Shown here in pieces: positions 1-18,686 of a stretch of DNA of 25,822 nucleotides (position 1 is the first letter of the stretch; each line of letters begins with the position of its first letter). The stretch is taken from positions 1 to 25,822 of IMG/VR virus record IMGVR_UViG_3300044912_000380. One strand, written 5' to 3'. The position numbers were made by a program, and so were the translations under genes. The notes beneath the pieces were generated by a model. That model saw only the letters and a program-made list of their open reading frames with translations. It was not told the origin of the DNA and did not search any database. Source of the stretch: a virus.

Positions 1-189
1 CAATTTATTCTGCACCGCTAAATCTAAAAGATACTTACCGCTATTTAGCCGTAAAAACTTCCGATTAAATAAAATCGAAACAGGGGCAGTTTAGAGAGTG
101 TTCTCGCCCAATGTCGTAAGTAAGAACCCTCACAAAATTTGTCAGTGCTAACTGATACAATAACTAAATAAACAAACGAAAGGAAAACT
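1..189. other. Non-coding leader region before the first gene
   Basis: I find no convincing coding sequence here. The stretch is AT-rich and ends with the first copy of the conserved phage promoter (140-161) and an AACGAAAGG leader directly before the gene at 190. The beginning may be the tail of an intergenic region cut by the window edge. Confidence 0.6.
140..161 (+). promoter_or_regulatory. Phage promoter P1 (TGTCAG ... TACAAT)
   Basis: TGTCA at 140-144 lies exactly 11 bp before TACAAT (156-161), with an extended -10 TG at 153-154. The predicted start near 168 gives a short leader containing AACGAAAGG before the ATG at 190. It is one of ten copies in the left arm with identical spacing. 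No CRP-like palindrome is visible in phase upstream. Confidence 0.8.
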
Positions 190-354
190 ATGTTAAACAT
201 AATCGACAAAACCGATTTCTATGAAATCGCAGACGAGCAACATTTTTGTTGTGATGAAAGTCAATTTAAGTATTACTGTATCGAACACCTAGAATTTATG
301 GGTTGCTACTTTTGCGGATTTGACTATGACAAAGATTGCGAGGAACAACACTAA
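190..354 (+). CDS. Small cysteine-rich protein, 54 aa
   Basis: It starts at ATG after the leader AACGAAAGGAAAACT and is the first gene of the P1 unit. The product is acidic with CC (residues 20-21) and a later CxxC in GCYFCGF plus single cysteines, which suggests a small metal-binding knuckle. The stop overlaps the next ATG (TAATG), so translation is probably coupled. I do not recognise the family. Confidence 0.75.
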   Translation: MLNIIDKTDFYEIADEQHFCCDESQFKYYCIEHLEFMGCYFCGFDYDKDCEEQH

Positions 355-497
355 TGATTAACTCAGTATTAACAATAGATTGCCAAGATTGCCACGGACA
401 CGGAGTAATCTTTTTTGGTAATGATAATGATTTTGATTGCGAACCTTGCGATTGCGTAGATGACGGCTCACTATTTTGGAACGGAGAAAATGACTAA
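354..497 (+). CDS. Small zinc-finger-like protein, 47 aa
   Basis: The start overlaps the stop of the upstream gene (TAATG). The product carries CQDCHGHG, which resembles one CxxCxGxG repeat of the DnaJ zinc-binding domain, followed by CEPCDC. Four or five cysteines in so short a chain argue for zinc binding. The J domain is absent, so it is not a DnaJ. Its function is unknown; it may be an adaptor or a host-interaction protein. Confidence 0.75.
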   Translation: MINSVLTIDCQDCHGHGVIFFGNDNDFDCEPCDCVDDGSLFWNGEND

Positions 498-700
498 TGT
501 ATAAATTAACTTGTGCTTATGACGGACACGCTCCTCATTGGTCAGCAGAATACGAAAGCGAATTTGGTGCGTGGGAAAACTTTTTCTTATTCACCGATTG
601 GGGTTTTGCTAACGAATACTCAACTGTAAATATTTACACGCCAACAGGCAAATGCTATACAAAAGTTTTCTATCGTAGTGGAATGGTGGCAGTAAAATGA
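497..700 (+). CDS. Hypothetical protein, 67 aa
   Basis: It is coupled to the upstream gene by TAATG and overlaps the following ATG by 4 bp. The product is rich in aromatic residues (many Trp, Tyr and Phe), as expected for a compact beta-sheet domain. No catalytic motif or membrane segment is visible. I do not recognise the family. Confidence 0.75.
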   Translation: MYKLTCAYDGHAPHWSAEYESEFGAWENFFLFTDWGFANEYSTVNIYTPTGKCYTKVFYRSGMVAVK

Positions 701-888
701 TGACACGAAAAGATTATGTCGCGGTTGCAGAAATTCTAAAGTTCGCAAGCGATAAAGCGCACCCAGCGTTATTTTCTAAAATGGTTAATGACTTTGCGGA
801 AATGTTCGCAAAAGATAATGACCGATTTGATGTAAAACGATTTCACGAAGCGAGTGGGTATCATGTCCCAAAATTCACTTCGAGATAA
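697..888 (+). CDS. Hypothetical phage protein, 63 aa
   Basis: It begins MMTRKDYVAVAEIL and contains DNDRFDVKRFHEASG. This arrangement is seen in small proteins of unknown function common in actinobacteriophages (a helix, then a 'DNxRFDxxRFxxAxG' end). The start overlaps the upstream stop (ATGATGA), so it is operonic. A helical, probably soluble protein; its role is unknown. Confidence 0.75.
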   Translation: MMTRKDYVAVAEILKFASDKAHPALFSKMVNDFAEMFAKDNDRFDVKRFHEASGYHVPKFTSR

Positions 889-994
889 AGTAAAGCGAAT
901 TCAGGAATTGCGTCGCAGTAATGCGGCGCAACCTGTTCGCAATAAGAAAAAATATTTTCGAAAGATCAAACATAAAAATAAATATGCAGAGTAA
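863..994 (+). CDS. Small basic protein, 43 aa
   Basis: This short reading frame starts inside the 3' end of the previous gene (ATG at 863) and runs to TAA at 992-994. The product is very basic (MSQNSLRDKVKRIQELRR at the start, with a lysine-rich tail), consistent with nucleic-acid binding. Overlapping layout and composition support it, but there is no independent evidence of expression. Confidence 0.5.
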   Translation: MSQNSLRDKVKRIQELRRSNAAQPVRNKKKYFRKIKHKNKYAE

Positions 995-1003
995 TGCATA
1001 GCT

Positions 1004-1085
1004 ATGCAGGCCCGCAATACTGCGGGGTTATCCACAGGTTTACGGGGTTATCCACAACCCCCTGGAATTTGTGAGATTAATCACA
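1004..1085. promoter_or_regulatory. Regulatory cassette A: two DnaA boxes plus CRP/GlxR-like site
   Basis: Two perfect DnaA boxes (TTATCCACA at 1028-1036 and 1048-1056) sit in direct repeat, 20 bp apart. TTTACG (1039) and CTGGAATTTG (1062) form the recurrent phage module. The perfect palindrome TGTGAGATTAATCACA at 1070-1085 matches the CRP/GlxR consensus. The block is a diverged duplicate of 2800-2888 and precedes promoter P2; the palindrome centre is 64 bp upstream of the P2 -10 centre. Confidence 0.75.
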
Positions 1086-1122
1086 AAATAAATAAGATAA
1101 AGCTTGGGCGTGTTGCACAATT

Positions 1123-1144
1123 TGTCAGTGCCCTAGTGTATAAT
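1123..1144 (+). promoter_or_regulatory. Phage promoter P2
   Basis: TGTCA (1123-1127), 11 bp, then TATAAT (1139-1144), preceded by TG. It drives the gene at 1176 through a leader with AACGAAAGG. Confidence 0.85.
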
Positions 1145-1175
1145 ACTCTTATACCAACAACGAAAGGCAATAAAA

Positions 1176-1379
1176 ATGATAGTAGAACACAATCTAAAGT
1201 TTGTAACAGAGTTTGCAGACAATCATCCAGTAACTCAACAGGTTATGGCACTTGATGAGGATACTCGTATCTTTATGCTAGAGTCTATGCTAAAAGACTT
1301 AGTAGCACCACGCCTACAACCAATTCTTGATGAAATAAATGCTAATGGCTCTTACGCAATACTAAAGGTGGCAGAATAA
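1176..1379 (+). CDS. Hypothetical protein, 67 aa
   Basis: It is the first gene of the P2 unit; ATG follows ACGAAAGGCAATAAAA. The product is predicted helical and acidic, with no membrane segment or metal motif. Its stop overlaps the ATG of the next gene. An overlapping frame from 1004 to 1255 is rejected because it runs through the promoter. Function unknown. Confidence 0.8.
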   Translation: MIVEHNLKFVTEFADNHPVTQQVMALDEDTRIFMLESMLKDLVAPRLQPILDEINANGSYAILKVAE

Positions 1380-1639
1380 TGGGATACAATACAGCATTAG
1401 ATTTATCTGAAGAATTAGATTTGGAAGTAGCATTAGGCTATCACTTACAGGGTAATCATTACCCACCCGTTCCACTTTCTATGGTGCCAGTATGTATCGA
1501 AGCAATAGATTTTGCTCATGATGACATGTGGGATGAAACTATCGAAATGCCTGATGGGATTACTTACAAGGGTGAGACATGTGCGCCAGTGTGGGCGATC
1601 ATCGAGGCTCACCACTTACACGCTTGGCTACCTGAGTGA
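1379..1639 (+). CDS. Hypothetical actinophage protein, 86 aa
   Basis: It begins MGYNTALDLSEELDLE, then YHLQGNHYPPVPLSMVP and an Asp/Glu-rich middle with a single MWDETIEMPDG segment, ending in a His-rich tail (EAHHLHAWLPE). Small proteins of this layout are frequent in actinobacteriophage left arms; no function is known to me. It is translationally coupled (TAATG) to 1176-1379. The stop overlaps a CRP-like palindrome at 1635-1650. Confidence 0.85.
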   Translation: MGYNTALDLSEELDLEVALGYHLQGNHYPPVPLSMVPVCIEAIDFAHDDMWDETIEMPDGITYKGETCAPVWAIIEAHHLHAWLPE

Positions 1640-1650
1640 CTAAGGTCACA
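1635..1650. promoter_or_regulatory. CRP/GlxR-like palindrome upstream of P3
   Basis: AGTGACTAAGGTCACA matches TGTGA-N6-TCACA with one mismatch, and its inner arms GTGAC/GTCAC are perfect. Its centre is 65 bp upstream of the P3 -10 centre, the same distance as in cassette B. Confidence 0.55.
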
Positions 1651-1688
1651 CAATAACTTTCTCAAATACTGAGACAGGGCTAGACTAA

Positions 1689-1710
1689 TGTCAGACCCCA
1701 ATGCTATACT
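1689..1710 (+). promoter_or_regulatory. Phage promoter P3
   Basis: TGTCA (1689-1693), 11 bp, TATACT (1705-1710) with an extended TGC immediately before. The leader has AAGAGG rather than the usual AACGAAAGG before the ATG at 1740. Confidence 0.8.
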
Positions 1711-1739
1711 ACAACCCTAACAAAGAAAAGAGGCAATAA

Positions 1740-1922
1740 ATGACAATCAACGACAAGTTGTATCAGGTAGGCGATTTATTCACTACCCTTAAGTCAAAGA
1801 AAACAGGTGTGATTAAAGAAATCCACCCACAAACATCTGGCTCGGTGCGTGTGCTATTGGAAATGCCCAACAAGGAAACTCGTTGGACTTCCGTATCCGC
1901 TCAAACACTACTAGGCGTTTAA
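1740..1922 (+). CDS. Small beta-rich protein, 60 aa
   Basis: A single-gene unit between P3 and P4. The sequence (YQVGDLFTTLKSKKTGVIKEI, then alternating beta strands) resembles a small SH3/KOW-like barrel such as those found in small phage proteins. The resemblance is by pattern only. No catalytic residues are visible. Confidence 0.8.
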   Translation: MTINDKLYQVGDLFTTLKSKKTGVIKEIHPQTSGSVRVLLEMPNKETRWTSVSAQTLLGV

Positions 1923-1932
1923 TTTAATGGGA

Positions 1933-1969
1933 GGGGGGTCGCAGAAATGTCAGACCCCCCTGCTATAAT
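1933..1969 (+). promoter_or_regulatory. Phage promoter P4 embedded in a GC-rich hairpin
   Basis: TGTCA (1948-1952), 11 bp, TATAAT (1964-1969) with TGC before it. GGGGGGTC (1933-1940) and GACCCCCC (1953-1960) form an 8-bp inverted repeat whose loop contains most of the TGTCA element. It may end transcription from P3 while P4 starts a new unit, although no T-run follows the stem. Confidence 0.75.
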
Positions 1970-2008
1970 TACTTCATCAACCCAACCCACAACGAAAGAA
2001 GGAAACAA

Positions 2009-2431
2009 ATGGCACGACAGAAAGCAATTAGCGTAAAGATAGCAACACCAAAGGTAATCAAGGCACTAGAAACTCGCTTGACAAAGTTAAATGCCGATTA
2101 CGCATCACAAGAAGCCAACGAAGCAAAGCACGAAAAGGCTTTAGAAAAGTGGCGCAAGGAAGTAGCAAAGTTTGCTTTTGCTAATTTCGCTAAGGCAGAA
2201 AACCTACGCACAAACTATCGCTCATGGAACAAGACACTTAATGTTGATTTTGATTTAACAGTTAATGAGTCAGACTTTCCTAAAGAGCCTGAGAAGGACT
2301 ACGAAGTTCTCCATCGCCACTCATACAATGAGATGAAAGAGGAGTTGGAAAACGCAATTCGTATTCTAAAGATGACAGATGAGGAAACAGTAAGCACAAG
2401 CACTTACAATGCTATTGCTCGTTATCTGTAA
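2009..2431 (+). CDS. Hypothetical helical/coiled-coil protein, 140 aa
   Basis: It starts at ATG after AACGAAAGAAGGAAACAA, driven by P4. Residues about 15-70 are Ala/Lys/Glu-rich and predicted to form long helices (for example KALEKWRKEVAKF). The C-terminal half contains another amphipathic helix (YNEMKEELENAIRILKM). It is probably a soluble coiled-coil protein. I do not recognise a family. Confidence 0.8.
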   Translation: MARQKAISVKIATPKVIKALETRLTKLNADYASQEANEAKHEKALEKWRKEVAKFAFANFAKAENLRTNYRSWNKTLNVDFDLTVNESDFPKEPEKDYEVLHRHSYNEMKEELENAIRILKMTDEETVSTSTYNAIARYL

Positions 2432-2527
2432 ATAAAATCGTTCTCGCATAACGATAAATTGCGAACGACCTGAGTAAGTCGCCAAACTGCTCTCCTTTCG
2501 GGGACAACTACTAACAAAGGTAATAAA
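2432..2527 (+). other. Short structured intergenic leader
   Basis: It contains an imperfect hairpin (CGTTCTCGC with GCGAACG around 2439-2467) and a CCTTTCGGGG stretch. No TGTCAG promoter is visible, so the downstream gene is probably read through from P4, with this segment as an inter-cistronic structure. Confidence 0.4.
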
Positions 2528-2782
2528 ATGAAAAATAGATTTCGTGTAGAAATTTATGATGAAAACAAGTTAAATGATTTAACAATCTATTCAGAACAGG
2601 GTGTTGATAAAGAATACTTAACTGAGTTAGTATTTTCTAATCGGCGTAACTTCTTTGGTAATGTTCGTGCTTATGTCTATGATACATTGAAGAAGACTAA
2701 GACTACTGCTCTTTACCTCCCGTCCGAAGTTGTTAACTTCAATCGCAAAAACCAATTAACTAGGGATGAGTTAGGTCTATAA
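2528..2782 (+). CDS. Hypothetical protein, 84 aa
   Basis: ATG follows AACAAAGGTAATAAA. The sequence looks like an alpha/beta domain (FRVEIYDENKLNDLTIYS, then a polar middle). No metal site, signal or membrane segment is seen. It lies just before regulatory cassette B. Function unknown. Confidence 0.8.
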   Translation: MKNRFRVEIYDENKLNDLTIYSEQGVDKEYLTELVFSNRRNFFGNVRAYVYDTLKKTKTTALYLPSEVVNFNRKNQLTRDELGL

Positions 2783-2799
2783 AGATCTAACACCAGTTG

Positions 2800-2888
2800 C
2801 ATATGCAGCTGGCCCGCAAAGCTAAGGGGTTATCCACAGGCTTACGACCACTTGTGGATAACCCTGGAATTTTGTGAGATTAATCACA
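2800..2888. promoter_or_regulatory. Regulatory cassette B: inverted DnaA boxes plus CRP/GlxR-like site
   Basis: TTATCCACA at 2830-2838 and its reverse complement TGTGGATAA at 2853-2861 are perfect DnaA boxes facing each other. The TTACGAC...CTGGAAT module lies between and after them (2842, 2864). TGTGAGATTAATCACA at 2873-2888 is identical to the palindrome in cassette A; its centre is 65 bp upstream of the P5 -10 centre. The flanks GGCCCGCAA and GGGGTTATCCACAGG are shared with cassette A. Confidence 0.75.
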
Positions 2889-2926
2889 TGGATCAATTCG
2901 GACATATTGTAACTAATCATAGACAA

Positions 2927-2948
2927 TGTCAGTGGCATCTGTTATACT
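2927..2948 (+). promoter_or_regulatory. Phage promoter P5
   Basis: TGTCA (2927-2931), 11 bp, TATACT (2943-2948) with TGT before it. TAGACA at 2920-2925 is also a fair -35 box at 17 bp. The leader carries AACGAAAGG before the ATG at 2980. Confidence 0.85.
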
Positions 2949-2979
2949 TACAACTAATCAAACAAACGAAAGGTAAAAA

Positions 2980-3987
2980 ATGGCTCATAATCTAGAAATG
3001 GAAAATGGCGAAGTTGCATTCGCACTTCGTGGCGCACCTGCATGGCACAACCTTGCAAATCGCATCTTTACACAAGATGAAGATGTTACAACTCAAATGA
3101 TGTTAGATGAGGCAAAACTTTCCAACTGGAATGTTCGCTTGTCTCCACTAACTGACCATATCTCAGATACATGGAATGATGTATCTAATGCTCAATTAGT
3201 TATTCGTGACAACCCATTCAACAATGGCACTGATGTACTGGCAACTGTTGGAAAGCGTTACAAGCCTGTACAGAATGAGGAACTATTCGCATTCGCTGAT
3301 GCAATTCATGATGCTAATGCTGATTGCCGTTGGGAATCTGCTGGCTCACTTCGTAGCGGTAAGGTTGTATTCGGTACAGTGGATATTCCTCGCACAATGG
3401 TGCTTGACCCACAAGGCGCAAATGATGCAACTAAGTTGTATCTAATTGTTTGGACATCTCATGACGGGTCAGTTGCTGTTCAGGCTGCTGTTACTCCTGT
3501 TCGTGTTGTATGCCAAAACACTCTTAACCTTGCAATGAAGAATGCTAAGCAATCTTTCAAGATTCGCCACACGCAATCTGTTGAAGGTCGCATCCAAGTT
3601 GCTCGTGAAACTCTTGGGCTTGCTCTTGGGTACTTTGATGAATTCGAGAAAGAGGCTCAGGCTCTTTATTCTCAATCAATCACTGATGCTGAATTCTCAA
3701 AGTTAATTCAGACAATTTATCCTAAGCCTGATAAGGATGCTGCTAAAGTTGCATTGACTAAGTGGGAAAACAAAGTCGTGCTCCTTGATGAGTTGTACCA
3801 TAACTCACCAACCAATGCTAATATCAAGGGAACAAAGTGGGGCGCATTCAATGCACTTACTGAACGCCTTGATTACTATCGTTCAGGTCGTGGAAATTCT
3901 GAAACACTTATGGCGGGTGCATCAGGCTTCGACCCAATTCTAACCGCAGAAAAAAATAAAATTAAAAAATTAATTTCTGCGTTCTAA
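2980..3987 (+). CDS. DUF932 / TIGR03299 phage-plasmid-like protein, 335 aa
   Basis: The largest left-arm gene. It matches the DUF932 pattern: N-terminal MAHNLEMENGEVAFALRG and PAWHNLANRI, a central VGKRYKPVQNEELFAFAD segment, then TPVRVVCQNTLNLAM and a C-terminal NKVVLLDELYH region. Members are widespread in actinophages and plasmids and resemble the plasmid protein family that includes YubP/YfjQ. The biochemical role is not established; it has been linked by context to DNA metabolism or to host takeover. Length is typical. It has its own promoter P5, with DnaA boxes and a CRP-like site upstream, and is followed by a weak terminator and tRNA-Asp. Confidence 0.93.
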   Translation: MAHNLEMENGEVAFALRGAPAWHNLANRIFTQDEDVTTQMMLDEAKLSNWNVRLSPLTDHISDTWNDVSNAQLVIRDNPFNNGTDVLATVGKRYKPVQNEELFAFADAIHDANADCRWESAGSLRSGKVVFGTVDIPRTMVLDPQGANDATKLYLIVWTSHDGSVAVQAAVTPVRVVCQNTLNLAMKNAKQSFKIRHTQSVEGRIQVARETLGLALGYFDEFEKEAQALYSQSITDAEFSKLIQTIYPKPDKDAAKVALTKWENKVVLLDELYHNSPTNANIKGTKWGAFNALTERLDYYRSGRGNSETLMAGASGFDPILTAEKNKIKKLISAF

Positions 3988-4002
3988 ATAAATAAATTCC
4001 TG

Positions 4003-4030
4003 AGCATGAATAAAAACTGCTCACAATTTT
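4003..4030 (+). terminator. Weak intrinsic terminator after the DUF932 gene
   Basis: TGAGC and GCTCA form a 5-bp stem with a long A-rich loop, followed by CAATTTTTT. The short stem makes it a modest terminator. Confidence 0.45.
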
Positions 4031-4035
4031 TTCCA

Positions 4036-4112
4036 GGTCCATTAGCTCAGTTGGTTAGAGCGCTACCCTGTCACGGTAGAGGTCGACGGTTCAAGTCCGT
4101 TATGGATCGCCA
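4036..4112 (+). tRNA. tRNA-Asp (anticodon GTC)
   Basis: A full cloverleaf: acceptor GGTCCAT with ATGGATC (one G-U pair), D-arm GCTC/GAGC, anticodon stem CTACC/GGTAG with loop CTGTCAC (anticodon GTC), T-arm GACGG/CCGTT with loop TTCAAGT, discriminator G and an encoded CCA. Phage tRNAs usually compensate for codon-use differences or for host tRNA cleavage. No integrase is present nearby, so a role as an attachment site is unsupported. Confidence 0.97.
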
Positions 4113-4141
4113 AGCGCCCTCAAATCTAAGGGGGCAAAAAG

Positions 4142-4157
4142 TGTGTTACGACTCACA
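4142..4157. promoter_or_regulatory. CRP/GlxR-like palindrome upstream of P6
   Basis: TGTGTTACGACTCACA has one mismatch to TGTGA-N6-TCACA. It overlaps a TTACGAC...CTGGAA module (4146-4172). Its centre lies 54 bp before the P6 -10 centre. Confidence 0.55.
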
Positions 4158-4184
4158 TAAAAATCCCCTGGAAATCCTTGATAA

Positions 4185-4206
4185 TGTCAGTCGGATCCTG
4201 TATAAT
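4185..4206 (+). promoter_or_regulatory. Phage promoter P6
   Basis: TGTCA (4185-4189), 11 bp, TATAAT (4201-4206); TTGATA at 4178-4183 is a plausible -35 box at 17 bp. The ATG at 4214 is 7 nt after the -10 box, so the mRNA should be leaderless, unlike the other left-arm units. Confidence 0.8.
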
Positions 4207-4213
4207 TCTACTC

Positions 4214-4831
4214 ATGACCAACGAACTAGTATCAAGTAAGTATACATTTGTCTGTGACCCAGATGAATGCGATTCATTAATAGAACTAACATCATCTGAT
4301 GGATTTGGCTTTCCTTCAGGTGTGACAACGCTCACATGCCCATGCGGACGCAAGACCACATTATTGTCAGTGGAGCATGCTACAATTACACCAACAACAA
4401 CGAAAGAGGATAAAATGGAAACAACAACAGACAATCACTACTTGACACGGGAATTTCTTGAGTCACAGTTGGTTGATAACAAGGCCCGCATTACACAGTT
4501 AGAAGAGCACATCCAGCGTATAACTCAGCGTGATTATGCAACTGCAGGAACTCTAAGCAAATTGCGTGATGACATGAAGGTATTCACACTCGAAGGCCTT
4601 GATGACGAATCTCTTACAGAATTTCAAGCAGAAGAAATTGCTGGCATCTGTGGATTTGAACTAACAAATGAGTTTGAACTAGAAGTAACAGTTCTATATT
4701 CAATTACAGTTAATGCTCGTGATGAAGAGAGTGCACACAATCTAATTCATGATATTGATTTTGACACCGTGTCTTATGACTCAGACGGTATTAGTTGGCT
4801 ATCATCATCTGTAGATAGAATTGAGGGCTAA
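4214..4831 (+). CDS. Zn-ribbon/coiled-coil protein with an internal second start (206 aa, or 139 aa from 4415)
   Basis: Starting at the P6 leaderless ATG (4214), residues 1-67 form a small zinc-ribbon-like unit (FVCDPDECDSLIEL ... TCPCGRKT). The frame continues without a stop through promoter P7 and an AACGAAAGAGG leader to a second ATG at 4415 that heads a 139-residue protein: TREFLESQLVDNKARITQLEE (helical, coiled coil), then an acidic domain. The two halves look like separate actinophage proteins of unknown function fused by loss of the intervening stop. Both forms are probably made. An upstream in-frame ATG at 4178 lies before the -10 box and is unlikely to be used. The stop overlaps the next ATG (TAATG). 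Confidence 0.8.
   Translation: MTNELVSSKYTFVCDPDECDSLIELTSSDGFGFPSGVTTLTCPCGRKTTLLSVEHATITPTTTKEDKMETTTDNHYLTREFLESQLVDNKARITQLEEHIQRITQRDYATAGTLSKLRDDMKVFTLEGLDDESLTEFQAEEIAGICGFELTNEFELEVTVLYSITVNARDEESAHNLIHDIDFDTVSYDSDGISWLSSSVDRIEG
4321..4336. promoter_or_regulatory. CRP/GlxR-like palindrome inside the 4214 gene, upstream of P7
   Basis: TGTGACAACGCTCACA matches TGTGA-N6-TCACA perfectly although it is coding sequence. Its centre is 55 bp upstream of the P7 -10 centre. Confidence 0.55.
4365..4386 (+). promoter_or_regulatory. Intragenic phage promoter P7
   Basis: TGTCA (4365-4369), 11 bp, TACAAT (4381-4386) with TGC before it, followed by a leader with AACGAAAGAGG before the ATG at 4415. 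It lies wholly inside the reading frame that starts at 4214. Confidence 0.78.
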
Positions 4832-5034
4832 TGTACTTTGAACTCACCGCTCCTGATAGGCTCTCCATGGAGAGGGCCTATTGGGATGCACAAATTACAG
4901 GGCTCGACCCACAAGCAATGTCTCCGTTGACATTCAACATTGGAACTGGTAGTATTGAGAAAGTAAGTAGACTTAGAGATAAGTATAACTTAACTGAATC
5001 TTATGTATCAGACTACGAAACCACAGGTTATTAA
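4831..5034 (+). CDS. Hypothetical protein, 67 aa
   Basis: It is coupled to the upstream gene by TAATG. The product contains LTAPDRLSMERAYWDAQITG, then a Thr/Ser-rich part ending YVSDYETTGY. It is soluble, with no recognised domain. Part of the P6/P7 operon that runs to 5754. Confidence 0.75.
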   Translation: MYFELTAPDRLSMERAYWDAQITGLDPQAMSPLTFNIGTGSIEKVSRLRDKYNLTESYVSDYETTGY

Positions 5035-5043
5035 GGAGAGATT

Positions 5044-5190
5044 ATGTCAGACTATAAGGATGGCTGGGATGACGGGTATAAGTTTGCCCGTGAAGAAATA
5101 ATGGAGAAGTTATCAGAAATTGATATCAACGATATTGATTCTTGGATTCTTGACCGTCTTTCTGAGATGATCGAAGGCGGTTCTCTATGA
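5044..5190 (+). CDS. Small acidic helical protein, 48 aa
   Basis: ATG follows AAGGAGAGATT, a strong ribosome binding site. The product begins MSDYKDGWDDGYKFAREEI, a 'DGYxDGY'-type repeat often seen in tiny phage proteins, followed by helices. The stop overlaps the next start (ATGA). Function unknown. Confidence 0.75.
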   Translation: MSDYKDGWDDGYKFAREEIMEKLSEIDINDIDSWILDRLSEMIEGGSL

Positions 5191-5387
5191 GAGACAGAGA
5201 ATTCATTCCATGTGATGCATGTGGATCAGCAGATGCAATGTATCTAGTTAAACTAGTAGATGGTGAGTTAGCTTTTTGCGGTCACCACTACAATAAAAAC
5301 AAGGCAGGCCTAGACAAGGTAGCCTATGAAGTGATAGAATTAGACAAGATAGAACTAGCAATACCTACTTTAGAAACGGCGGAATAA
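5187..5387 (+). CDS. DUF7455-like zinc-binding protein, 66 aa
   Basis: It contains CDACGSADAMYLVKL, then GELAFCGHHYNKN. The CxxC followed by CxHH about 20 residues later is the pattern of small actinobacterial and phage zinc proteins of the DUF7455 type. It probably folds as a single zinc ribbon. No biochemical role is known. Operonic, with a 4-bp overlap upstream. Confidence 0.8.
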   Translation: MRDREFIPCDACGSADAMYLVKLVDGELAFCGHHYNKNKAGLDKVAYEVIELDKIELAIPTLETAE

Positions 5388-5388
5388 A

Positions 5389-5754
5389 ATGGGCGACAGA
5401 GCAAACTTTGGATTCAGAGATTCCAAGGAAAATGTAGTATTTTTATATGGACACTGGGCTGGGTATAACATGCTAGCCAAGTTAGCAAATGCAGTACAGG
5501 CAGCGGAGTCCCGTTGGCAGGATGAGTCATATGCAACACGCATTGCTATATCACATCTAATTGGAGAAGACTGGAACCAAACATTATCGTGGGGTATATA
5601 TGTCAACCAATTGGGAGACAACGAACACAAGGTACCTGTAATTGATTGGACAAACCAAACATTTACACTCTACGAAGAGGACCTTGAAACAGTTGTATTT
5701 AGTTCATCCTTAGCATCATTTGTAGACAAATACAGTCGACTAGTTATGGTATAA
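5389..5754 (+). CDS. Hypothetical actinophage protein, 121 aa
   Basis: It begins MGDRANFGFRDSKENVVFLYGHW and contains YATRIAISHLIGEDWNQTLSWGIYV and GDNEHKVPVIDW. I know this layout from proteins of unknown function that recur in actinobacteriophages. Alternating strands and helices suggest one compact alpha/beta domain without signal or membrane parts. Last gene of its operon; its stop codon overlaps a candidate promoter (TATAAT at 5750-5755) for a downstream small RNA. Confidence 0.85.
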   Translation: MGDRANFGFRDSKENVVFLYGHWAGYNMLAKLANAVQAAESRWQDESYATRIAISHLIGEDWNQTLSWGIYVNQLGDNEHKVPVIDWTNQTFTLYEEDLETVVFSSSLASFVDKYSRLVMV

Positions 5755-5755
5755 T
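5750..5755 (+). promoter_or_regulatory. Extended -10 box for the candidate small RNA
   Basis: TGG followed by TATAAT overlaps the stop codon of the upstream gene. The expected +1 near 5762 coincides with the start of a hairpin (AGGAC-TAAG-GTCCT, 5762-5775). The upstream element AGTCG at the TGTCA position is only a weak match. Confidence 0.5.
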
Positions 5756-5761
5756 TAGACT

Positions 5762-5908
5762 AGGACTAAGGTCCTGGTTTTAATAGGAAATATAATGGTG
5801 CGTCTATCAGTCTTCGGGCCAGGCGCTAAGTAAAGCGGGTTTATTTCTTTCGTTGGAAATCCAGGCAGCCATTATTCAAGACCCCCAGTTAAGCTGGGGG
5901 TTTTTCTT
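5762..5908 (+). ncRNA. Candidate small RNA complementary to the shared AACGAAAG leader
   Basis: Between a -10 box and a strong terminator lies about 147 nt without a substantial gene. It would begin with a 5-bp hairpin and contains CTTTCGTT (5847-5854) within TTCTTTCGTTGG, the reverse complement of the CAACGAAAG leaders that carry most left-arm ribosome binding sites. A 12-codon frame (5795-5833, MVRLSVFGPGAK) with AGGA upstream could be a leader peptide instead. Assignment as a small RNA is inference from sequence only. Confidence 0.45.
5882..5908 (+). terminator. Strong intrinsic terminator
   Basis: CCCCCAG-TTAAG-CTGGGGG stem followed by TTTTTCTTT, the clearest rho-independent terminator in the window. 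It ends the operon of 4214-5754 and any small RNA started at 5762. Confidence 0.92.
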
Positions 5909-5940
5909 TGCCCTCAAAGACATGAGGGTAGCATATTGTC

Positions 5941-6017
5941 TTTACGACTGTCAATTATATTCCCTGGAATTTGGTGTGATCTTGACCACAAAGCTGAATC
6001 ATGTGGCATGTATCACA
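5941..6017. promoter_or_regulatory. Module plus two CRP/GlxR-like palindromes upstream of P8
   Basis: TTTACGAC (5941) and CTGGAATTTGG (5964) form the recurrent module. TGTGATCTTGACCACA (5975-5990) and TGTGGCATGTATCACA (6002-6017) each have one mismatch to TGTGA-N6-TCACA, 27 bp apart centre to centre. The second is flanked by perfect CATGTG/CACATG arms; its centre is 45 bp from the P8 -10 centre. Confidence 0.6.
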
Positions 6018-6035
6018 TGCCAATTCTATTCCATT

Positions 6036-6057
6036 TGTCAGTGGTCCAATGTATAAT
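6036..6057 (+). promoter_or_regulatory. Phage promoter P8
   Basis: TGTCA (6036-6040), 11 bp, TATAAT (6052-6057). The leader has CAACGAAAGGATATAAA before the ATG at 6085. Confidence 0.85.
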
Positions 6058-6084
6058 TATCACATATCAACGAAAGGATATAAA

Positions 6085-6819
6085 ATGCCAAATTGGGTAT
6101 TTAATGGATTAACTATTGAAGGTAATCCTGAGCAAGTTAAATCTTTAATCAAGCAGATGAATAAGCCATTTGTTTATTCTATTACTGCATTAGGTGATTT
6201 ATCATATGATGTCAAGCAGACTAAGTATGTTAATCCTATCTTTGCTTTTCATAATATCTATAACTATAGAGATGCTGGTATTACTGATGAGGTATATCAT
6301 GGACAACCTCCTCGTTCCACCGATTTTTCTCAGGCAATGAAGTTTGAGACCAATGACTGGTACAACTTTAATGTGCGTGAGTGGGGAACCAAATGGGATG
6401 TTGCTGTAGCCGAGGATAATAAGTATCCTGATACAACTATTGAAGAAGCAGAAAATGGCGAGAACTATGTAGTTCATTACAACTTTAACACTGCATGGTC
6501 ACGACCTCTTGGTGCTATCTCTAAACTATCTGCACAATACCCTAATCTACTATTTACTTTATCATATGAAGAAGAAACAGGTTGGGGTGGGGAAATGGAA
6601 TTCCTCCGTGGAGAAGTTATCTCAGAATCAGAATACGATAACATGTGCCGTGATTGTGATGCAACTGACCAAATGGAATACTGCGACAATGACTGCGGTG
6701 AAATCTGTGGCAACTGCAACTGGCTAGGCAATGCTGACCTAGAGGCTGTCGCAATTTGTCAGACCCATAAGATATACTTAGACACTAAAGTACCCGAATA
6801 TAGAAAGGCGGAAGCATAA
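6085..6819 (+). CDS. Api92-like ferredoxin-fold domain protein with C-terminal Cys cluster, 244 aa
   Basis: The start at 6085 directly follows the AACGAAAGG leader; the longer frame from 6001 would run through the promoter. Residues 1-190 match the phage/plasmid family with a ferredoxin-like Api92 domain (related to DUF1281): MPNWVFNGLTIEGN at the start, FAFHNI, then WYNFNVREWGTKWD and a late GWGGEMEF. The C-terminus adds a cysteine cluster (CRDCD, YCDNDCGEICGNC, then a single Cys), probably zinc-binding. The family is found on mobile elements; its function is unknown. First gene of an operon reaching 8607; its stop overlaps the next ATG. Confidence 0.88.
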   Translation: MPNWVFNGLTIEGNPEQVKSLIKQMNKPFVYSITALGDLSYDVKQTKYVNPIFAFHNIYNYRDAGITDEVYHGQPPRSTDFSQAMKFETNDWYNFNVREWGTKWDVAVAEDNKYPDTTIEEAENGENYVVHYNFNTAWSRPLGAISKLSAQYPNLLFTLSYEEETGWGGEMEFLRGEVISESEYDNMCRDCDATDQMEYCDNDCGEICGNCNWLGNADLEAVAICQTHKIYLDTKVPEYRKAEA

Positions 6820-7031
6820 TGGAAGCATTTACAGATACAGTAGGAGAACATATCCTTGGAGCAATTCAAGTAGATATTGAGCAAGCATTATTTGAAGATT
6901 GGAATAATGCTAACTTAGATGAGGGAGAAGCATTTGCTGAATGGAGATTTATGCAATTTGCTCCTGATAACTTAAAACAATCATACAATGAATACTATGG
7001 TTATATTGAAGGAGATGAATTCTGCTTATGA
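6819..7031 (+). CDS. Hypothetical acidic protein, 70 aa
   Basis: Coupled by TAATG to the Api92-like gene. Very acidic, with Trp and Tyr scattered (EDWNNANLDEGEAFAEWRF) and YNEYYGYIEGDEF near the end. It could act as a DNA mimic or an adaptor, but only composition suggests this. Confidence 0.75.
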   Translation: MEAFTDTVGEHILGAIQVDIEQALFEDWNNANLDEGEAFAEWRFMQFAPDNLKQSYNEYYGYIEGDEFCL

Positions 7032-7174
7032 TTACCTGCCAAGAACTAATTGATTATATCTATGATGACAACTTAATCCATTTTGATGACAGAGATACAT
7101 CAGATGATTGTGATTGTCACATTCACATAACACTTAATACTATGATTAAATATATGGAGGCAATAGAATGCTAG
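7028..7174 (+). CDS. Small acidic protein with CDCH motif, 48 aa
   Basis: The start overlaps the upstream stop (ATGA). The sequence contains DRDTSDDCDCHIHITLN, giving Cys-x-Cys-His-x-His, a possible metal site. Operon position supports reality; function is unknown. Confidence 0.65.
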   Translation: MITCQELIDYIYDDNLIHFDDRDTSDDCDCHIHITLNTMIKYMEAIEC

Positions 7175-7317
7175 GTTATACATTAGATGATCTTGATGAA
7201 ATGAGGGCTGTTGTTACTAAGGCTTTTTATGATTCTAAAGGAATGCCGACTGAAAAAGGATTAGAAAAGACAGCAGACTTTTTAGACGGGCTTTGGGCGG
7301 AGGGTTACTTTGACTAA
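7168..7317 (+). CDS. Small helical protein, 49 aa
   Basis: The start overlaps the end of the previous gene by 7 bp, with ATGGAGGCAATAGA upstream as ribosome binding site. The product is helical and acidic (LDDLDEMRAVVTKAFYDSKG). No recognised domain. Confidence 0.65.
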   Translation: MLGYTLDDLDEMRAVVTKAFYDSKGMPTEKGLEKTADFLDGLWAEGYFD

Positions 7318-7516
7318 GTCATCACATTTTATGGAGTATCTAAAGATACATAAGATTAGCTTAGAACAAGATTTAGAAGATGCTAGAAATAATATTCCTA
7401 TTCCTGAAGATGAATACTTCGAATCAGATAGTTATTATATGGGTGCCATTGATACTATGGAACATATTTTGTCAGTGGCCTCTGATATAATGAATAACAA
7501 CGAAAGGGTATATTAA
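7310..7516 (+). CDS. Hypothetical protein, 68 aa (TTG start)
   Basis: TTG at 7310 follows GGCGGAGGG at good spacing; the alternative ATG at 7331 lacks a clear ribosome binding site. The chain is helical (EYLKIHKISLEQDLEDARNN). Its 3' end contains promoter P9, which starts the next unit. Function unknown. Confidence 0.7.
   Translation: MTKSSHFMEYLKIHKISLEQDLEDARNNIPIPEDEYFESDSYYMGAIDTMEHILSVASDIMNNNERVY
7470..7491 (+). promoter_or_regulatory. Intragenic phage promoter P9
   Basis: TGTCA (7470-7474), 11 bp, TATAAT (7486-7491) with TGA before it, then AACGAAAGGG before the ATG at 7516. It lies inside the 7310-7516 gene and boosts the 7516-8607 genes. No CRP-like palindrome is in phase upstream. 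Confidence 0.8.
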
Positions 7517-7719
7517 TGAACATATCATCTAGAGAAGTTACTTATCGTTCCGCCGTCGAACAAATCTTTTTTGAGGACGGGACCGAATTAGTAATCACAA
7601 TTGGTGCTCCTGCCGAAGGCGGAGGAGATATCGATATTAAATATGATTGGGTAGAAGGAAAGCCTGATTGGGCAAACAACTTAAATGAATTAACACTAGT
7701 GAACTATGAGGTAATCTAA
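7516..7719 (+). CDS. Hypothetical beta-rich protein, 67 aa
   Basis: First gene after P9 and overlapping the upstream stop. The pattern (VTYRSAVEQIFFEDGTELVIT, then a Gly-rich GAPAEGGGD loop and KYDWVEGKPDW) suggests an all-beta domain. No recognised family. Confidence 0.75.
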   Translation: MNISSREVTYRSAVEQIFFEDGTELVITIGAPAEGGGDIDIKYDWVEGKPDWANNLNELTLVNYEVI

Positions 7720-7991
7720 TGAATGCAGAAGACATTGGGCTCCCGCCCCATTTGCAACGCATGGTCAATGCAGGTGTTAGTGGATTAGATATAATGCACG
7801 GAGAACTAAAGAATCTAATGTTAATTGCTGAGCAAGACCTAGCAAGCGCATTAGAGCAGGAGGAGTTGTCTGAAGAGGCAATGGATTCCATGGTCCGCAC
7901 AGAATGTGAAGGGCGCTTAGACATGCTAGTAGAACTATATAATCTAACATACCAACTATCATTTGCGATTGGAGCACGGAATGAAGCCTGA
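7719..7991 (+). CDS. Hypothetical helical protein, 90 aa
   Basis: Coupled by TAATG. Mostly acidic helices (IMHGELKNLMLIAEQDLASA, then EEAMDSMVRTECEGRLDML). It is soluble and may dimerise through coiled coils. Its 3' end overlaps the next start at 7981. Function unknown. Confidence 0.75.
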   Translation: MNAEDIGLPPHLQRMVNAGVSGLDIMHGELKNLMLIAEQDLASALEQEELSEEAMDSMVRTECEGRLDMLVELYNLTYQLSFAIGARNEA

Positions 7992-8295
7992 CGATAAAGA
8001 TAAACTAAACAAATGTCTAGAGATTCTAGATAGCACAGACCTAGGTCTATCATTAGTTTGGTTGTGGACATGGTCGACAATTAACGGCATTCTAGAGGAT
8101 GAGACCTATGTTGCCAAGGCAACCCAAGAAGACATGTGGAACCACCTGTGTGAGGCCGTGGAGGCTGGTATGGGGTTCTCTCTAGAGTGGGGCGCTGAAC
8201 AACATAACGAAGAAGTTTTGGATTGGATGTTAAGCAGGGAATACATTGTTGACCCTGAAGATGAAGAGGAGGAGGACGAAGATGAAGATGAGTGA
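7981..8295 (+). CDS. Hypothetical protein with very acidic tail, 104 aa
   Basis: I prefer ATG at 7981, preceded by GGAGCACGGA, over the further-upstream ATG at 7963 that overlaps more of the previous gene. A Trp-rich core (LVWLWTWSTINGIL) is followed by LCEAVEAGMGFSLEWG and a tail of Asp/Glu only (last 17 residues). Such tails occur in histone-like or DNA-mimic proteins, but the function is unknown. Confidence 0.75.
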   Translation: MKPDDKDKLNKCLEILDSTDLGLSLVWLWTWSTINGILEDETYVAKATQEDMWNHLCEAVEAGMGFSLEWGAEQHNEEVLDWMLSREYIVDPEDEEEEDEDEDE

Positions 8296-8425
8296 TGAGT
8301 ATCTAAACGATCAACTTAGTAAGGCCCAAGCCTTGCTATGGGGTGGCTCCGAAACAGAAAACATCGAGGCACACAATATCATTTCTAAACTAATCAAAGA
8401 TAAGATAGAACAGGTGGGGCTATGA
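8282..8425 (+). CDS. Small helical protein, 47 aa
   Basis: The start (ATG at 8282, or 8288) lies in the acidic tail codons of the previous gene. The product is helical and ends just at the next start (ATGA overlap). No recognised motif. Confidence 0.6.
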   Translation: MKMSDEYLNDQLSKAQALLWGGSETENIEAHNIISKLIKDKIEQVGL

Positions 8426-8607
8426 GACAAGACTATAAAATCTACGGAGACCGCATTCAGAAGTTTTATGTGACAATTAATGCTGAGTCACATGACCTTG
8501 CGTGGGAGGCAGCCGAAAGGATTCCTGCAGAGGGCTGGACAGAAATACCAACTAATGACTTAATTGAGCCATACAATGTAGTAGAACTAGAAAGTATAAC
8601 TAAATAA
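8422..8607 (+). CDS. Hypothetical protein, 61 aa
   Basis: Overlaps the upstream stop by 4 bp; ribosome binding site GGTGGGG. The pattern FYVTINAESHDLAWEAAERIPAE is a beta-alpha unit frequent in small actinophage proteins (one strand, one helix over a conserved 'A..A'). Last gene of the operon; a hairpin follows. Function unknown. Confidence 0.75.
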   Translation: MRQDYKIYGDRIQKFYVTINAESHDLAWEAAERIPAEGWTEIPTNDLIEPYNVVELESITK

Positions 8608-8610
8608 AGA

Positions 8611-8657
8611 TAGCTTTGGCCGTTATGGACAATTCGGACATAACGGTCATTAAGCTA
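8611..8657 (+). terminator. Long hairpin after the 6085-8607 operon
   Basis: CCGTTATG (8620-8627) pairs with CATAACGG (8639-8646), extended by TAGCTT and AAGCTA outside. There is no T-run, so it may be a transcript-stabilising structure or a weak terminator. Confidence 0.6.
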
Positions 8658-8692
8658 AGGGACACGGGCAAAAATATTGCTTTACGACCCTA

Positions 8693-8721
8693 TTTACAAA
8701 ACCCCGAAATTCGGATATAAT
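8693..8721 (+). promoter_or_regulatory. Canonical promoter of the Lsr2-like gene
   Basis: TTTACA, 17 bp, TATAAT: a normal housekeeping-type promoter, unlike the TGTCAG promoters nearby. A TTTACGAC module (8681) overlaps it. The leader has AGAAAGGA before the ATG at 8755. Confidence 0.75.
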
Positions 8722-8754
8722 ATATATAACAAAGATCTAGAAAGGATCAAACAA

Positions 8755-8907
8755 ATGACATCAACACCAACAACAACTCGTGAATACCTAAAGGCCCAGG
8801 GAATTACTGTAGGAAAGCGTGGTCGCTTTTCAGCTGCAGCTCTAGGCGTTATCAGCAAGGCAGCACAAGAGGGCGTAGTCTTCACAGACAAGAAGAACGT
8901 CAAGTAA
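8755..8907 (+). CDS. Lsr2-like DNA-binding mini-protein, 50 aa
   Basis: ATG at 8755 is chosen because it follows AGAAAGGATCAAACAA. The product carries TREYLKAQGITVGKRGRFSA, close to the C-terminal DNA-binding half of Lsr2, where an RGR motif inserts in the minor groove of AT-rich DNA. The dimerisation half is missing; many actinophages encode such reduced forms. Proposed role: counter-silencing or local silencing of phage or host promoters, by analogy. It has its own promoter and is followed by a GC-rich hairpin. Confidence 0.72.
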   Translation: MTSTPTTTREYLKAQGITVGKRGRFSAAALGVISKAAQEGVVFTDKKNVK

Positions 8908-8921
8908 TAAGCTAAGTGTGG

Positions 8922-8962
8922 GGTTCCTCCTCTCTGTGGGAAAACGGGAAAGGGGAGGAACC
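8922..8962 (+). terminator. GC-rich hairpin after the Lsr2-like gene
   Basis: GGTTCCTCC and GGAGGAACC form a perfect 9-bp stem around a 23-nt loop. No T-run follows, so termination is likely but not certain. Confidence 0.6.
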
Positions 8963-8978
8963 TCGCTTCATTTACAAA

Positions 8979-9000
8979 TGTCAGTGGTCAATGGTATAAT
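8979..9000 (+). promoter_or_regulatory. Phage promoter P10
   Basis: TGTCA (8979-8983), 11 bp, TATAAT (8995-9000) with TGG before it; TTTACA at 8971-8976 could act as an additional -35. The leader has AACGAAAGGCGG before the ATG at 9021. Confidence 0.85.
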
Positions 9001-9020
9001 CAAAACGAAAGGCGGAACTC

Positions 9021-9365
9021 ATGGCTAAAGCGAACGAATTCAAAGCGGCAGAAAAACTAACAGACTATCTAAATAATGCTAACTTCTCACCAGCAGTAAT
9101 GGCTAATGTACTAACAACTGAACATACCTTGTATACACAAGACAGGCTAATGGAACTAGTTAGATATATTATCCAATATAATTCCCTTAGATTAAAGTCA
9201 GAATGGGATAAAGGATATACATCCGAAGGATTGCTTTTAGCAGATGCGCTCAATGATATGCTGGAAGCAAAATATGGAGCGGTGGATAGAAACCTAACAA
9301 TAGACTCTTTGAAAGAAACAAGAGTAAGAGATAGCAAGTATGTAATGGATCTAGATTCATTCTAA
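9021..9365 (+). CDS. Hypothetical helical protein, 114 aa
   Basis: The last rightward gene, in its own unit from P10 and ending in a strong terminator. The product is helical and basic at the start (KANEFKAAEKLTDYLNN), with a second helical block LRLKSEWDKGYTSEGLLLAD. Soluble; no recognised family. Confidence 0.8.
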   Translation: MAKANEFKAAEKLTDYLNNANFSPAVMANVLTTEHTLYTQDRLMELVRYIIQYNSLRLKSEWDKGYTSEGLLLADALNDMLEAKYGAVDRNLTIDSLKETRVRDSKYVMDLDSF

Positions 9366-9378
9366 TATAATTTCCCCT

Positions 9379-9419
9379 ATGGGGCATATGGCTTTAATTA
9401 GCTATATGTCCCATTTTTG
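9379..9419. terminator. Intrinsic terminator closing the left arm
   Basis: ATGGGGCATATGGC pairs with GCTATATGTCCCAT (two G-U pairs) around a short TTTAATTA loop, followed by TTTTTGT. It ends rightward transcription. Confidence 0.85.
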
Positions 9420-9508
9420 TATGCCCAAATTATGGGCCAAATTTTCTCTTTACGACGCATGTAAAAATACGCTGGAATTTGTAGCAAATCAAATAAAATC
9501 TGTCAAAA

Positions 9509-9549
9509 TCTGTATAGAATATCTCATTATATGAGACAAATTATACAGA
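9509..9549. repeat. 41-bp interrupted palindrome
   Basis: TCTGTATA (9509-9516) mirrors TATACAGA (9542-9549), and TCTCAT (9522-9527) mirrors ATGAGA (9531-9536), sharing one centre at 9529. It suits a dimeric protein binding site or cruciform. Confidence 0.7.
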
Positions 9550-9794
9550 ATTAGACATAATTTTTTGCCATAAATATGGGCCAAAATTGCTCTTTACGAA
9601 CAAATAAAAAAATTTCCTGGAATATCTATTTACAAATATTGGCCAATATGCTTTCATATGGGCCCTATTGACATTACGAACATTAATTGATAGGGTTCCA
9701 TTACATACATATGTTTAACTATATATAATGATAGTATTTGGATCTAAATTGATAGTATGATTCTCCACTTTACTCCACAATACTCCACTAAATA

Positions 9795-9809
9795 AGCCTC
9801 TAGGAGGCT
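9795..9809 (-). terminator. Possible terminator of the leftward operon
   Basis: AGCCTC-TAG-GAGGCT perfect 6-bp hairpin followed on the minus strand by TTATTTA. Short stem, so modest confidence. Confidence 0.4.
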
Positions 9810-9853
9810 CATACAAGGGAGATTAAAGGGAGGGGGATAGAATAGTTAGGGGA

Positions 9854-14454: not shown

Positions 14455-15237
14455 TTATTTTTTATTAAAATTAATTAAAGCTTCTTCAAGTGCGTGGTAA
14501 GGTTCACCCAAAGCTGAAGTTATTCCTGTTCCAGTGTGCATAAATAAAAAGATGTATGTTTTATTTCCAGACAAAACTTCATTAACTGAATGAGAGGTCA
14601 AGCAGGGAAGAAAAACTATGCTACCAGCAGATGGCTTTATTGAATATCCCAGATCATCAAAGACAATCTCTCCACCTTCGTAGTTATCGTTAAGATATAT
14701 AAGAGATGTCCAGTCCATAGTGTTTTTTGGATTCAATATATTTCTATCTATATGTGGTCCCATGCCACCGCCAGTTCTATACTTTCTAATACAATAGTTT
14801 CTGGTTATGTGGTGAGGCAAATCATTATTTGTTTTTTCTGACCAAATTTTTAAGGCGTTTATGTAGTCATCTTCTATCATCTTAATAGCTGGCAAAGATT
14901 TCTGATGATCTACGCTATTACTAGCATGTTCAGATATATCTTTTTTTGGCCAAAAGTTGTTATTATCGTTGTAAGACAAATCCCAATCTAGTAGCTTAGA
15001 AACACCTCTCAACGAGTGTTCATTATCTGGAAATATTTGCTCCCATTTTGTCATATCGTATGGGTCTAAGCTAACTGGATAACCATCAATCCATGTAGTC
15101 CATGATGGAAAAACTTTTAGAATTTCTGGGTTTTCGTTGTTTAATTCTACAAAATCTAAAAACTCTTTAGCTTTAGGAAATGCATTTTCTATGTATATTA
15201 CGCCACCAGGCATGTCGTGAATTATAGGAGTAGTCAT
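14455..15237 (-). CDS. 2OG-Fe(II) oxygenase (prolyl-4-hydroxylase type), 260 aa
   Basis: The C-terminal half shows the double-stranded beta-helix core: GGGMGPHIDR gives Fe ligands His162 and Asp164, SLIYLNDNYEGGEIVFDD is the typical strand pair, SIVFLPCLTSHSVNEV supplies His216, and Lys226 is the candidate 2-oxoglutarate anchor. These enzymes hydroxylate proteins, peptides or small molecules. The N-terminal 140 residues are specific and unassigned. The ATG lies 6 nt after TATAAT, so the mRNA should be leaderless. Confidence 0.9.
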   Translation of the reverse strand: MTTPIIHDMPGGVIYIENAFPKAKEFLDFVELNNENPEILKVFPSWTTWIDGYPVSLDPYDMTKWEQIFPDNEHSLRGVSKLLDWDLSYNDNNNFWPKKDISEHASNSVDHQKSLPAIKMIEDDYINALKIWSEKTNNDLPHHITRNYCIRKYRTGGGMGPHIDRNILNPKNTMDWTSLIYLNDNYEGGEIVFDDLGYSIKPSAGSIVFLPCLTSHSVNEVLSGNKTYIFLFMHTGTGITSALGEPYHALEEALINFNKK

Positions 15238-15243
15238 AGAATA

Positions 15244-15249
15244 ATTATA
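15244..15249 (-). promoter_or_regulatory. -10 box of a leaderless unit (oxygenase at 15237)
   Basis: TGC-TATAAT on the minus strand, 6 nt before the ATG; it lies in the end of the upstream gene (15245-15433). Confidence 0.65.
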
Positions 15250-15433
15250 GCACCTCTTTGTTTATTGCTTCTTTAATGACTGGGTCCAGCCTGTCCCAAT
15301 GACCATTTTCGCTACCCTGATAAGCTACACCAGTTTCTCTATCAATCAAAAGCCATTTTTCTGGACACTTAGTTTTAACCTGCAATGTAACAGATTTTAA
15401 TATAGTTTTAAATTTAAATCCAGGTCTCAACAT
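15245..15433 (-). CDS. Hypothetical protein, 62 aa
   Basis: Contains KCPEKWLLIDRETGVAYQG, then HWDRLD. It overlaps the GroES gene end by one base in tandem. Probably a small beta domain; function unknown. Confidence 0.7.
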   Translation of the reverse strand: MLRPGFKFKTILKSVTLQVKTKCPEKWLLIDRETGVAYQGSENGHWDRLDPVIKEAINKEVL

Positions 15434-15730
15434 TTATCCTTTTATTGCGAGCACACTTTTTGTATTTAGAAGTAAGTACTTTTCTCCATCTGCATCTTCA
15501 ATGTCAGTTCCGCTATTTTGATTATAATAAACTGTATCATCAACTTTAAGTCCAGATATAGGAATCAGCTCTCCCTTGTAGTTGTATTCTCCATTGCCTA
15601 AATCTAAAATCTTTCCAGTTCTAAGGTTAGATTCACTTAATGAAGCCATGAGCACTATGCCAGAAGAGGTAGTCCTGTCCTCTACTTTATCTTCTTTAAT
15701 TAATAAGAGGTTGCCAAATGGCTTTATCAT
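15434..15730 (-). CDS. groES: Co-chaperonin GroES (Cpn10), 98 aa
   Basis: The sequence follows Cpn10 from end to end: PFGNLLLIKEDKVED, a mobile loop (TTSSGIVLMAS) equivalent to the GroEL-binding loop, GKILDLGNGEYN, KVDDTVYYNQNSGTDIE and a final KYLLLNTKSVLAIKG. Length is normal for the family. It would cap the host GroEL to assist folding of phage proteins, as known for T4 Gp31. No groEL is nearby, so it must use the host chaperonin. Confidence 0.9.
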   Translation of the reverse strand: MIKPFGNLLLIKEDKVEDRTTSSGIVLMASLSESNLRTGKILDLGNGEYNYKGELIPISGLKVDDTVYYNQNSGTDIEDADGEKYLLLNTKSVLAIKG

Positions 15731-15740
15731 CTAAGTATTC

Positions 15741-15902
15741 CTATTCTTCAAAAAATTCTTGGGTTTCCCAAAATTTATCTTTTTTGTATTGCTCTTGAAT
15801 TCTTTTTGCATTAAAAATAAAAGACATATCTCGATAAAGCTTAAAGCCTAAATATGCTGATAAAACAAATACAATTAATCCAATTATAATAAAGTTATTC
15901 AT
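15741..15902 (-). CDS. Single-pass membrane protein, 53 aa
   Basis: Residues 4-19 (FIIIGLIVFVLSAYLG) form a transmembrane helix, followed by a charged cytoplasmic tail with KRIQEQYKKDKFWETQEFFE. ATG sits 6 nt after TATAAT (leaderless). Could be a spanin-like or regulatory peptide; nothing confirms it. Confidence 0.7.
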   Translation of the reverse strand: MNNFIIIGLIVFVLSAYLGFKLYRDMSFIFNAKRIQEQYKKDKFWETQEFFEE

Positions 15903-15908
15903 ACTACT

Positions 15909-15914
15909 ATTATA
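15909..15914 (-). promoter_or_regulatory. -10 box of a leaderless unit (gene at 15902)
   Basis: TG-TATAAT on the minus strand, 6 nt before the ATG. Confidence 0.65.
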
Positions 15915-15940
15915 CATTCTTAGGATAATATTGTCAATGC

Positions 15941-18641: not shown

Positions 18642-18663
18642 CTTAAAACACCTAACCTTAAGT

Positions 18664-18686
18664 AACGCTAATGTATTATTAAGCGT
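18664..18686 (-). terminator. Hairpin before the oxygenase cluster
   Basis: On the minus strand AACGCT(T)AAT pairs with ATTAGCGTT around a short loop with one bulge. It may end the 19513-18689 unit; no long T-run. Confidence 0.45.

Follow-up and report, generated by a model that had tools for sequence, protein, structure and literature searches.

The 25,822-nucleotide stretch of viral DNA analysed here (the window) raises the question of what an AT-rich, gene-free region at positions 9366-9853 does at the point where a long minus-strand gene arm and a short plus-strand arm converge. The last plus-strand gene stops at 9365 and the opposing minus-strand gene at 9854, in agreement with the preliminary description of this DNA, and the sole open reading frame of at least 50 aa inside (9379-9534, 51 aa) is cut through by indels in relatives. 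That description called the region origin-like; what stands of this proposal is that a control region, conserved and carrying repeats, separates the convergent arms, but an origin is not the best-supported function of the region and the left end of a direct terminal repeat (DTR) is favoured. Judging from comparative sequence analysis, the region is most probably the left terminus of a phage genome that has a long (~12 kb) DTR, combined with the terminators of both converging gene arms.

Phage identity and genome organization

The window covers part of a phage genome of ~115 kb that maps as a circle. Record IMGVR_UViG_3300032332_000934 (G005) is self-closing, with a 113-bp end overlap and 114,853 bp of unique sequence, and two genomes of similar length, G004 and G006, are permuted relative to it. 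Most genes lie on one strand, and the short arm lies opposite. The nearest matches of DNA polymerase III alpha and of the portal protein were found in the family Stanwilliamsviridae (Streptomyces cluster BE phages; 55-60% identity), and on the basis of these two similarities the phage was placed next to this family. From the relatives and the lake metagenome type we infer that the host belongs to freshwater Actinobacteria. Since the portal gene lies more than 30 kb away, a packaging site beside portal genes was rejected for the region.

Anatomy of the convergent intergenic region

The following features were distinguished, with offsets counted from the predicted left end of the DTR.

9379..9418, plus strand: intrinsic terminator of the short arm, a 15-bp stem followed by a T run
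9423..9455, minus strand: CGTAA module 3, CGTCGTAAAGAGAAAATTTGGCCCATAATTTGGGC, with TCGTAA at 9450-9455, offset +244
9492-9566, no strand: imperfect palindrome with 36-nt arms, 75% complementary, 130-200 bp within the predicted DTR
9567..9599, minus strand: CGTAA module 2, TTCGTAAAGAGCAATTTTGGCCCATATTTATGGC, with TCGTAA at 9594-9599, offset +100
9635..9649, no strand: AATATTGGCCAATAT, a near-invariant short palindrome found once per genome (conservation 0.99)
9669..9679, minus strand: CGTAA module 1, CGTAATGTCAA, offset +20, common to other clades of the family
9698..9705, minus strand: predicted left DTR end, TGTAAT (9705-9700) and then the cut, at 9699/9700 or 9698/9699, from which the DTR would extend toward lower coordinates and past the window edge
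9729-9737 and 9750-9758, plus strand: TGATAGTAT direct repeats, of the form (A/G)ATAGTAT in many relatives
9763..9788, no strand: iteron array of three CTCCAC (GTGGAG on the minus strand) with a 10-bp period, offset -69 to -89
9795-9809, no strand: small hairpin AGCCTC-TAG-GAGGCT, the stem of which is kept by paired changes in distant relatives
9817..9839, plus strand: purine tract GGGAGATTAAAGGGAGGGGGATA, C-rich on the minus strand, at the right edge of the conserved module
1..9699, no strand: predicted part of the DTR inside the window, carrying the short plus-strand arm of small genes

The three CTCCAC copies start at 9763, 9773 and 9783, with a period of exactly 10 bp and beside the small hairpin, and the two TTTACGA modules (9449 and 9593) and the direct repeats (9729 and 9750) are likewise present as first described. 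The spaced CTCCAC triplet is expected about 0 times per 115-kb genome, and the region is its sole site genome-wide. The heptamer TTTACGA was discarded as a genome-wide signal, its count being at chance level outside the terminal region; both copies of the region lie inside a pair of 44-nt repeats that are 80% identical and 144 bp apart. The terminator stem at 9379..9418 retains 14-15 of its 15 pairs in nearly all relatives, paired changes included, and the hairpin at 9795-9809 is a possible terminator of the long minus-strand arm.

Conservation among related viral contigs

A search with the left-hand gene as query recovered 47 viral contigs of up to 117 kb, and roughly 45 viral contigs keep the region. 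Identity of the intergenic DNA is 84-100% in some 40 contigs and ~70% in two distant ones, and every one of the 22 searched records contains this DNA exactly once. Few contigs carry a match to the right-hand gene, so that the conserved module was taken to end near 9840. Conservation is highest in the two TGATAGTAT repeats, the three CTCCAC copies, the GGGCCAAA..TTTACGA modules and the GGCC palindrome.

Comparison with relatives had been proposed as a check on the repeats and on the palindrome, with different results for the two. The iterons proved nearly invariant, whereas the large palindrome at 9492-9566, although it exists, is variable and decays to 19 of 36 pairs in contig L006 and 10 of 22 in L044; it was therefore dropped as the key element. 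This decay, together with the circular map of G005, also ruled out a protelomerase-type site. Neither of the genes flanking the iteron region matches a known family, a blastn comparison of the surroundings with annotated phages gave no match, and no relative of the left-hand gene was found in the bacterial genomes searched.

Genome ends in Stanwilliamsviridae

Phages of this family have DTRs, and for cluster BE1 read pile-up and 2-fold depth served to map the genome ends (PMC5764925). In all six records compared (BillNye, Yaboi, Annadreamy, Gilson, Wakanda and TomSawyer), the right end lies exactly 46 bp past the start of TATGGGCGCACTA, at TAT/CATACAT (the slash marking the cut), and that of Daubenski agrees. 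The left ends of Boydwoodruffvirinae directly follow TGTAAT(G) in 9/9 phages and lie in or beside the convergent gap; those of Jay2Jay, NootNoot, Tomas, Enygma, LilMartin and Targaryen were placed by means of the right-end motif and the record length, with a possible error of 1 bp. A perfect inverted pair of DnaA boxes is located at about -93/-69 in eight of these nine phages, Tomas being without it. The DTRs of Yaboi, TomSawyer and Daubenski contain the short arm, with TCGTAAA copies of uniform orientation clustered within the initial 700 bp, and Yaboi and NootNoot have a TGTGGATAA pair together with TCGTAA repeats. Loccivirinae (BillNye, Annadreamy, Gilson, Wakanda) share the right-end motif and have the left end near a GGTAAT-type sequence by the convergent gap, TGTAAT not directly preceding the end in all cases; they differ in a DTR of 0.8-2.3 kb, in a hairpin at or beside the left end, and in having neither DnaA boxes nor a GTGGAG array. 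No paper that describes conserved terminal motifs or terminal DnaA boxes for these phages was found in the open-access literature searched. For Jay2Jay, the terminal repeat printed in Table 1 of PMC5764925 is 10,778 bp, the value of Paradiddles, versus ~11,439 bp from the right-end motif.

Predicted ends of the phage

The right-end motif occurs once per genome in G003, G004, G005, G006, G009 and others of the clade, at 11.5-13.5 kb from the region and outside the window. Close relatives share the minus-strand TGTAAT of the region, whose last base is at 9700, 69 bp away from the CTCCAC array. The DTR lengths thus implied, computed for twelve genomes or contigs, are 11,470-13,475 bp, compared with 10.7-12.8 kb in Boydwoodruffvirinae. 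In a contig near-identical to the window (G038) the implied DTR is ~12,305 bp, which would place the right end ~2.6 kb before window position 1.

Among 125 unique contexts of the GTGGAG triplet, 50 have TGTAAT within 90 bp, and in 50/50 of these its distance to the last GTGGAG is 69 bp (30 cases) or 70 bp (20 cases); because related sequences are not independent, this register is given as a statement of constraint and carries no P value. It is not universal, since the other 75, which come from a more divergent group, lack TGTAAT in that range. The first 330 bp past the predicted end contain, over 28 contexts, 78 CGTAA in forward orientation and 0 in reverse (TTACG). No contig was found to end exactly at either predicted cut, where short-read assemblies are not expected to break. 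A different arrangement was observed in the divergent contigs L290, L284 and L255 (95-119 kb; polymerase 53-54% identical): the CTCCAC triplet has a CGTAA site only ~30 bp away, with no intervening TGTAAT, and two or three DnaA boxes lie at 60-80 bp on the opposite side.

The window's clade and Boydwoodruffvirinae (Yaboi, TomSawyer, Daubenski, NootNoot) thus have in common an end in or beside the convergent gap with TGTAAT(G) directly before it, one-way TCGTAA(A) repeats within the DTR, an identical right-end motif, and a GTGGA-containing box ~69 bp ahead of the end. In the same place, however, the window's clade has three tandem GTGGAG with a 10-bp period, whereas Boydwoodruffvirinae have inverted perfect DnaA boxes, which are not present as such in the window's clade. 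The latter also has the additional CGTAATGTCAA module at +20, and its gene-free gap is shorter (490 bp versus ~1.2-1.6 kb in most Boydwoodruffvirinae).

Under the left-terminus reading, replication would yield concatemers in which a single DTR copy joins adjacent genomes. The left end would be made by the phage terminase just past TGTAAT(G) on the minus strand, at 9698-9700, and the right end at the TAT/CATACAT site, ~12 kb farther along. Candidate binding sites are the phased GTGGAG array, which lies outside the DTR, and the CGTAA repeats of uniform direction within it; they may position the terminase or an associated protein, for example the small terminase subunit or a protein resembling DnaA. 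The sequences show the conserved layout, the constant spacing, the orientation bias and the agreement with relatives whose records end at these motifs, whereas cutting at the predicted left end, the pairing of proteins with repeats and the way the DTR is duplicated are inferred.

A possible replication origin and DnaA boxes

The best surviving alternative is a replication origin, in which the iterons would serve as boxes for an initiator (DnaA or a phage initiator) and the adjacent AT-rich DNA would melt; it is possible though unlikely as the function of the region, and could coexist with a terminus. The AT-rich composition and the lack of genes fit it, and what keeps it in consideration is that DnaA boxes stand at the corresponding place in relatives. 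Besides the inverted pair of Boydwoodruffvirinae, many DnaA boxes surround the equivalent end in the bridging contigs L337 and L346, the ends of which have TGTAAT and CGTAATGTCAA at +20 as in the window's clade (L346 polymerase 65% identical). In L260, DnaA boxes separate the GTGGAG array from the end without disturbing the register, and the first iteron of G005, TTCTCCACA, differs by one mismatch from TTATCCACA. From the boxes at the ends of Boydwoodruffvirinae, L337, L346 and L260, the iterons of the window's clade are plausibly diverged or substituted DnaA-type boxes.

A canonical DnaA box is nevertheless absent from 9366-9853, the perfect boxes of the genome occur instead in promoter-like cassettes repeated within the short arm, and the replication genes are tens of kb distant. 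Cumulative GC skew, suggested earlier as a check, does turn over here: the detrended curve has its maximum at the region or at most ~0.6 kb from it in G004, G005 and G006. An origin would give a minimum, however, and a maximum has the polarity of a terminus, although skew cannot settle between the two because it also tracks gene direction. The left-terminus reading is favoured over an origin because of where the region lies, its TGTAAT site, the right-end motif that pairs with it at 11.5-13.5 kb and the family architecture. A composite replication-packaging site, in which DnaA-like initiator boxes would stand in register, ~69 bp from the terminase cut, and one array would both start replication and mark the cut in the concatemer, is a still more doubtful proposition.

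The cassettes lie at 1000-1180 and 2790-2980, each preceding a small gene or a DUF932 gene, and consist, in this order, of a hairpin (CCCGC..GCGGG), a perfect DnaA-box pair (TTATCCACA), a TGTGAGATTAATCACA palindrome of the CRP/GlxR type and a promoter-like sequence. Relatives have three to four cassettes each, and very few perfect DnaA boxes of the genome lie outside them. Possible functions are host-regulated early promoters or origins, and within the window the cassettes are a better DnaA-box candidate than 9366-9853.

Transcription-based explanations

It is very unlikely that the region is merely a border of convergent transcription, made of the terminators of two operons and with no added role: the arms do converge, with a conserved terminator hairpin of the plus arm and a smaller hairpin at the other side, but the hairpins span a small share of the region, and termination needs no near-invariant iterons, no 69/70-bp register and no one-way CGTAA repeats.

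Equally improbable is a rightward sigma-70 promoter driving a small RNA with CUCCAC repeats and a G-rich tract. The earlier remark that promoters are not the explanation was slightly too strong, given weak rightward sigma-70-like hexamers at 9668-9696 (seen by eye) and at 9700-9729 (ATTACA-18-TATAAT), and TTGACA-17/18-TATGCT-like hexamers in several relatives. Such promoter-like matches are, however, as numerous as expected by chance, L346 is without the -10 element and yet keeps CGTAATGTCAA, the hairpin is followed by no U run on that strand, and a search of Rfam gave nothing of note.

Comparison with other phages and significance

Bacteriophages T5 and SPO1 have genomes with fixed ends. Lambda, which is without a DTR, has a terminase that cuts beside directly repeated binding sites (the R sites of cosB). 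In T7, a DTR phage, an inverted repeat lies near the left end; the palindrome of the window lies within the predicted DTR and is not conserved, unlike a T7-type hairpin left end. No sequence relation of T5, SPO1 or lambda to the window was seen, and the repeats described here are only putative terminase-binding sites. How ends are formed and duplicated in long-DTR phages (T5, SPO1, cluster BE) is, to our knowledge, largely unsolved. The repeats of T5 and SPO1 measure 10-13 kb (PMC5764925).

The two-end signature, with TATGGGCGCACTA..TAT/CATACAT on the right and the GTGGAG array, 69-70 bp, TGTAAT and one-way CGTAA on the left, would make termini predictable in uncultured contigs, which is useful where phage contigs assemble as permuted circles, and it names specific sites in culturable Streptomyces phages. 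DnaA-type boxes at the end raise a link between replication and packaging that is testable.

The short arm includes a DUF932-family gene (2980-3987, plus strand), of the same kind as one annotated as DUF945 in the Yaboi DTR. By the terminus, the long arm (14455-25315, minus strand) carries, along with many unknowns, genes resembling those of 2OG-Fe(II) oxygenases, a radical SAM protein and a subtilase.
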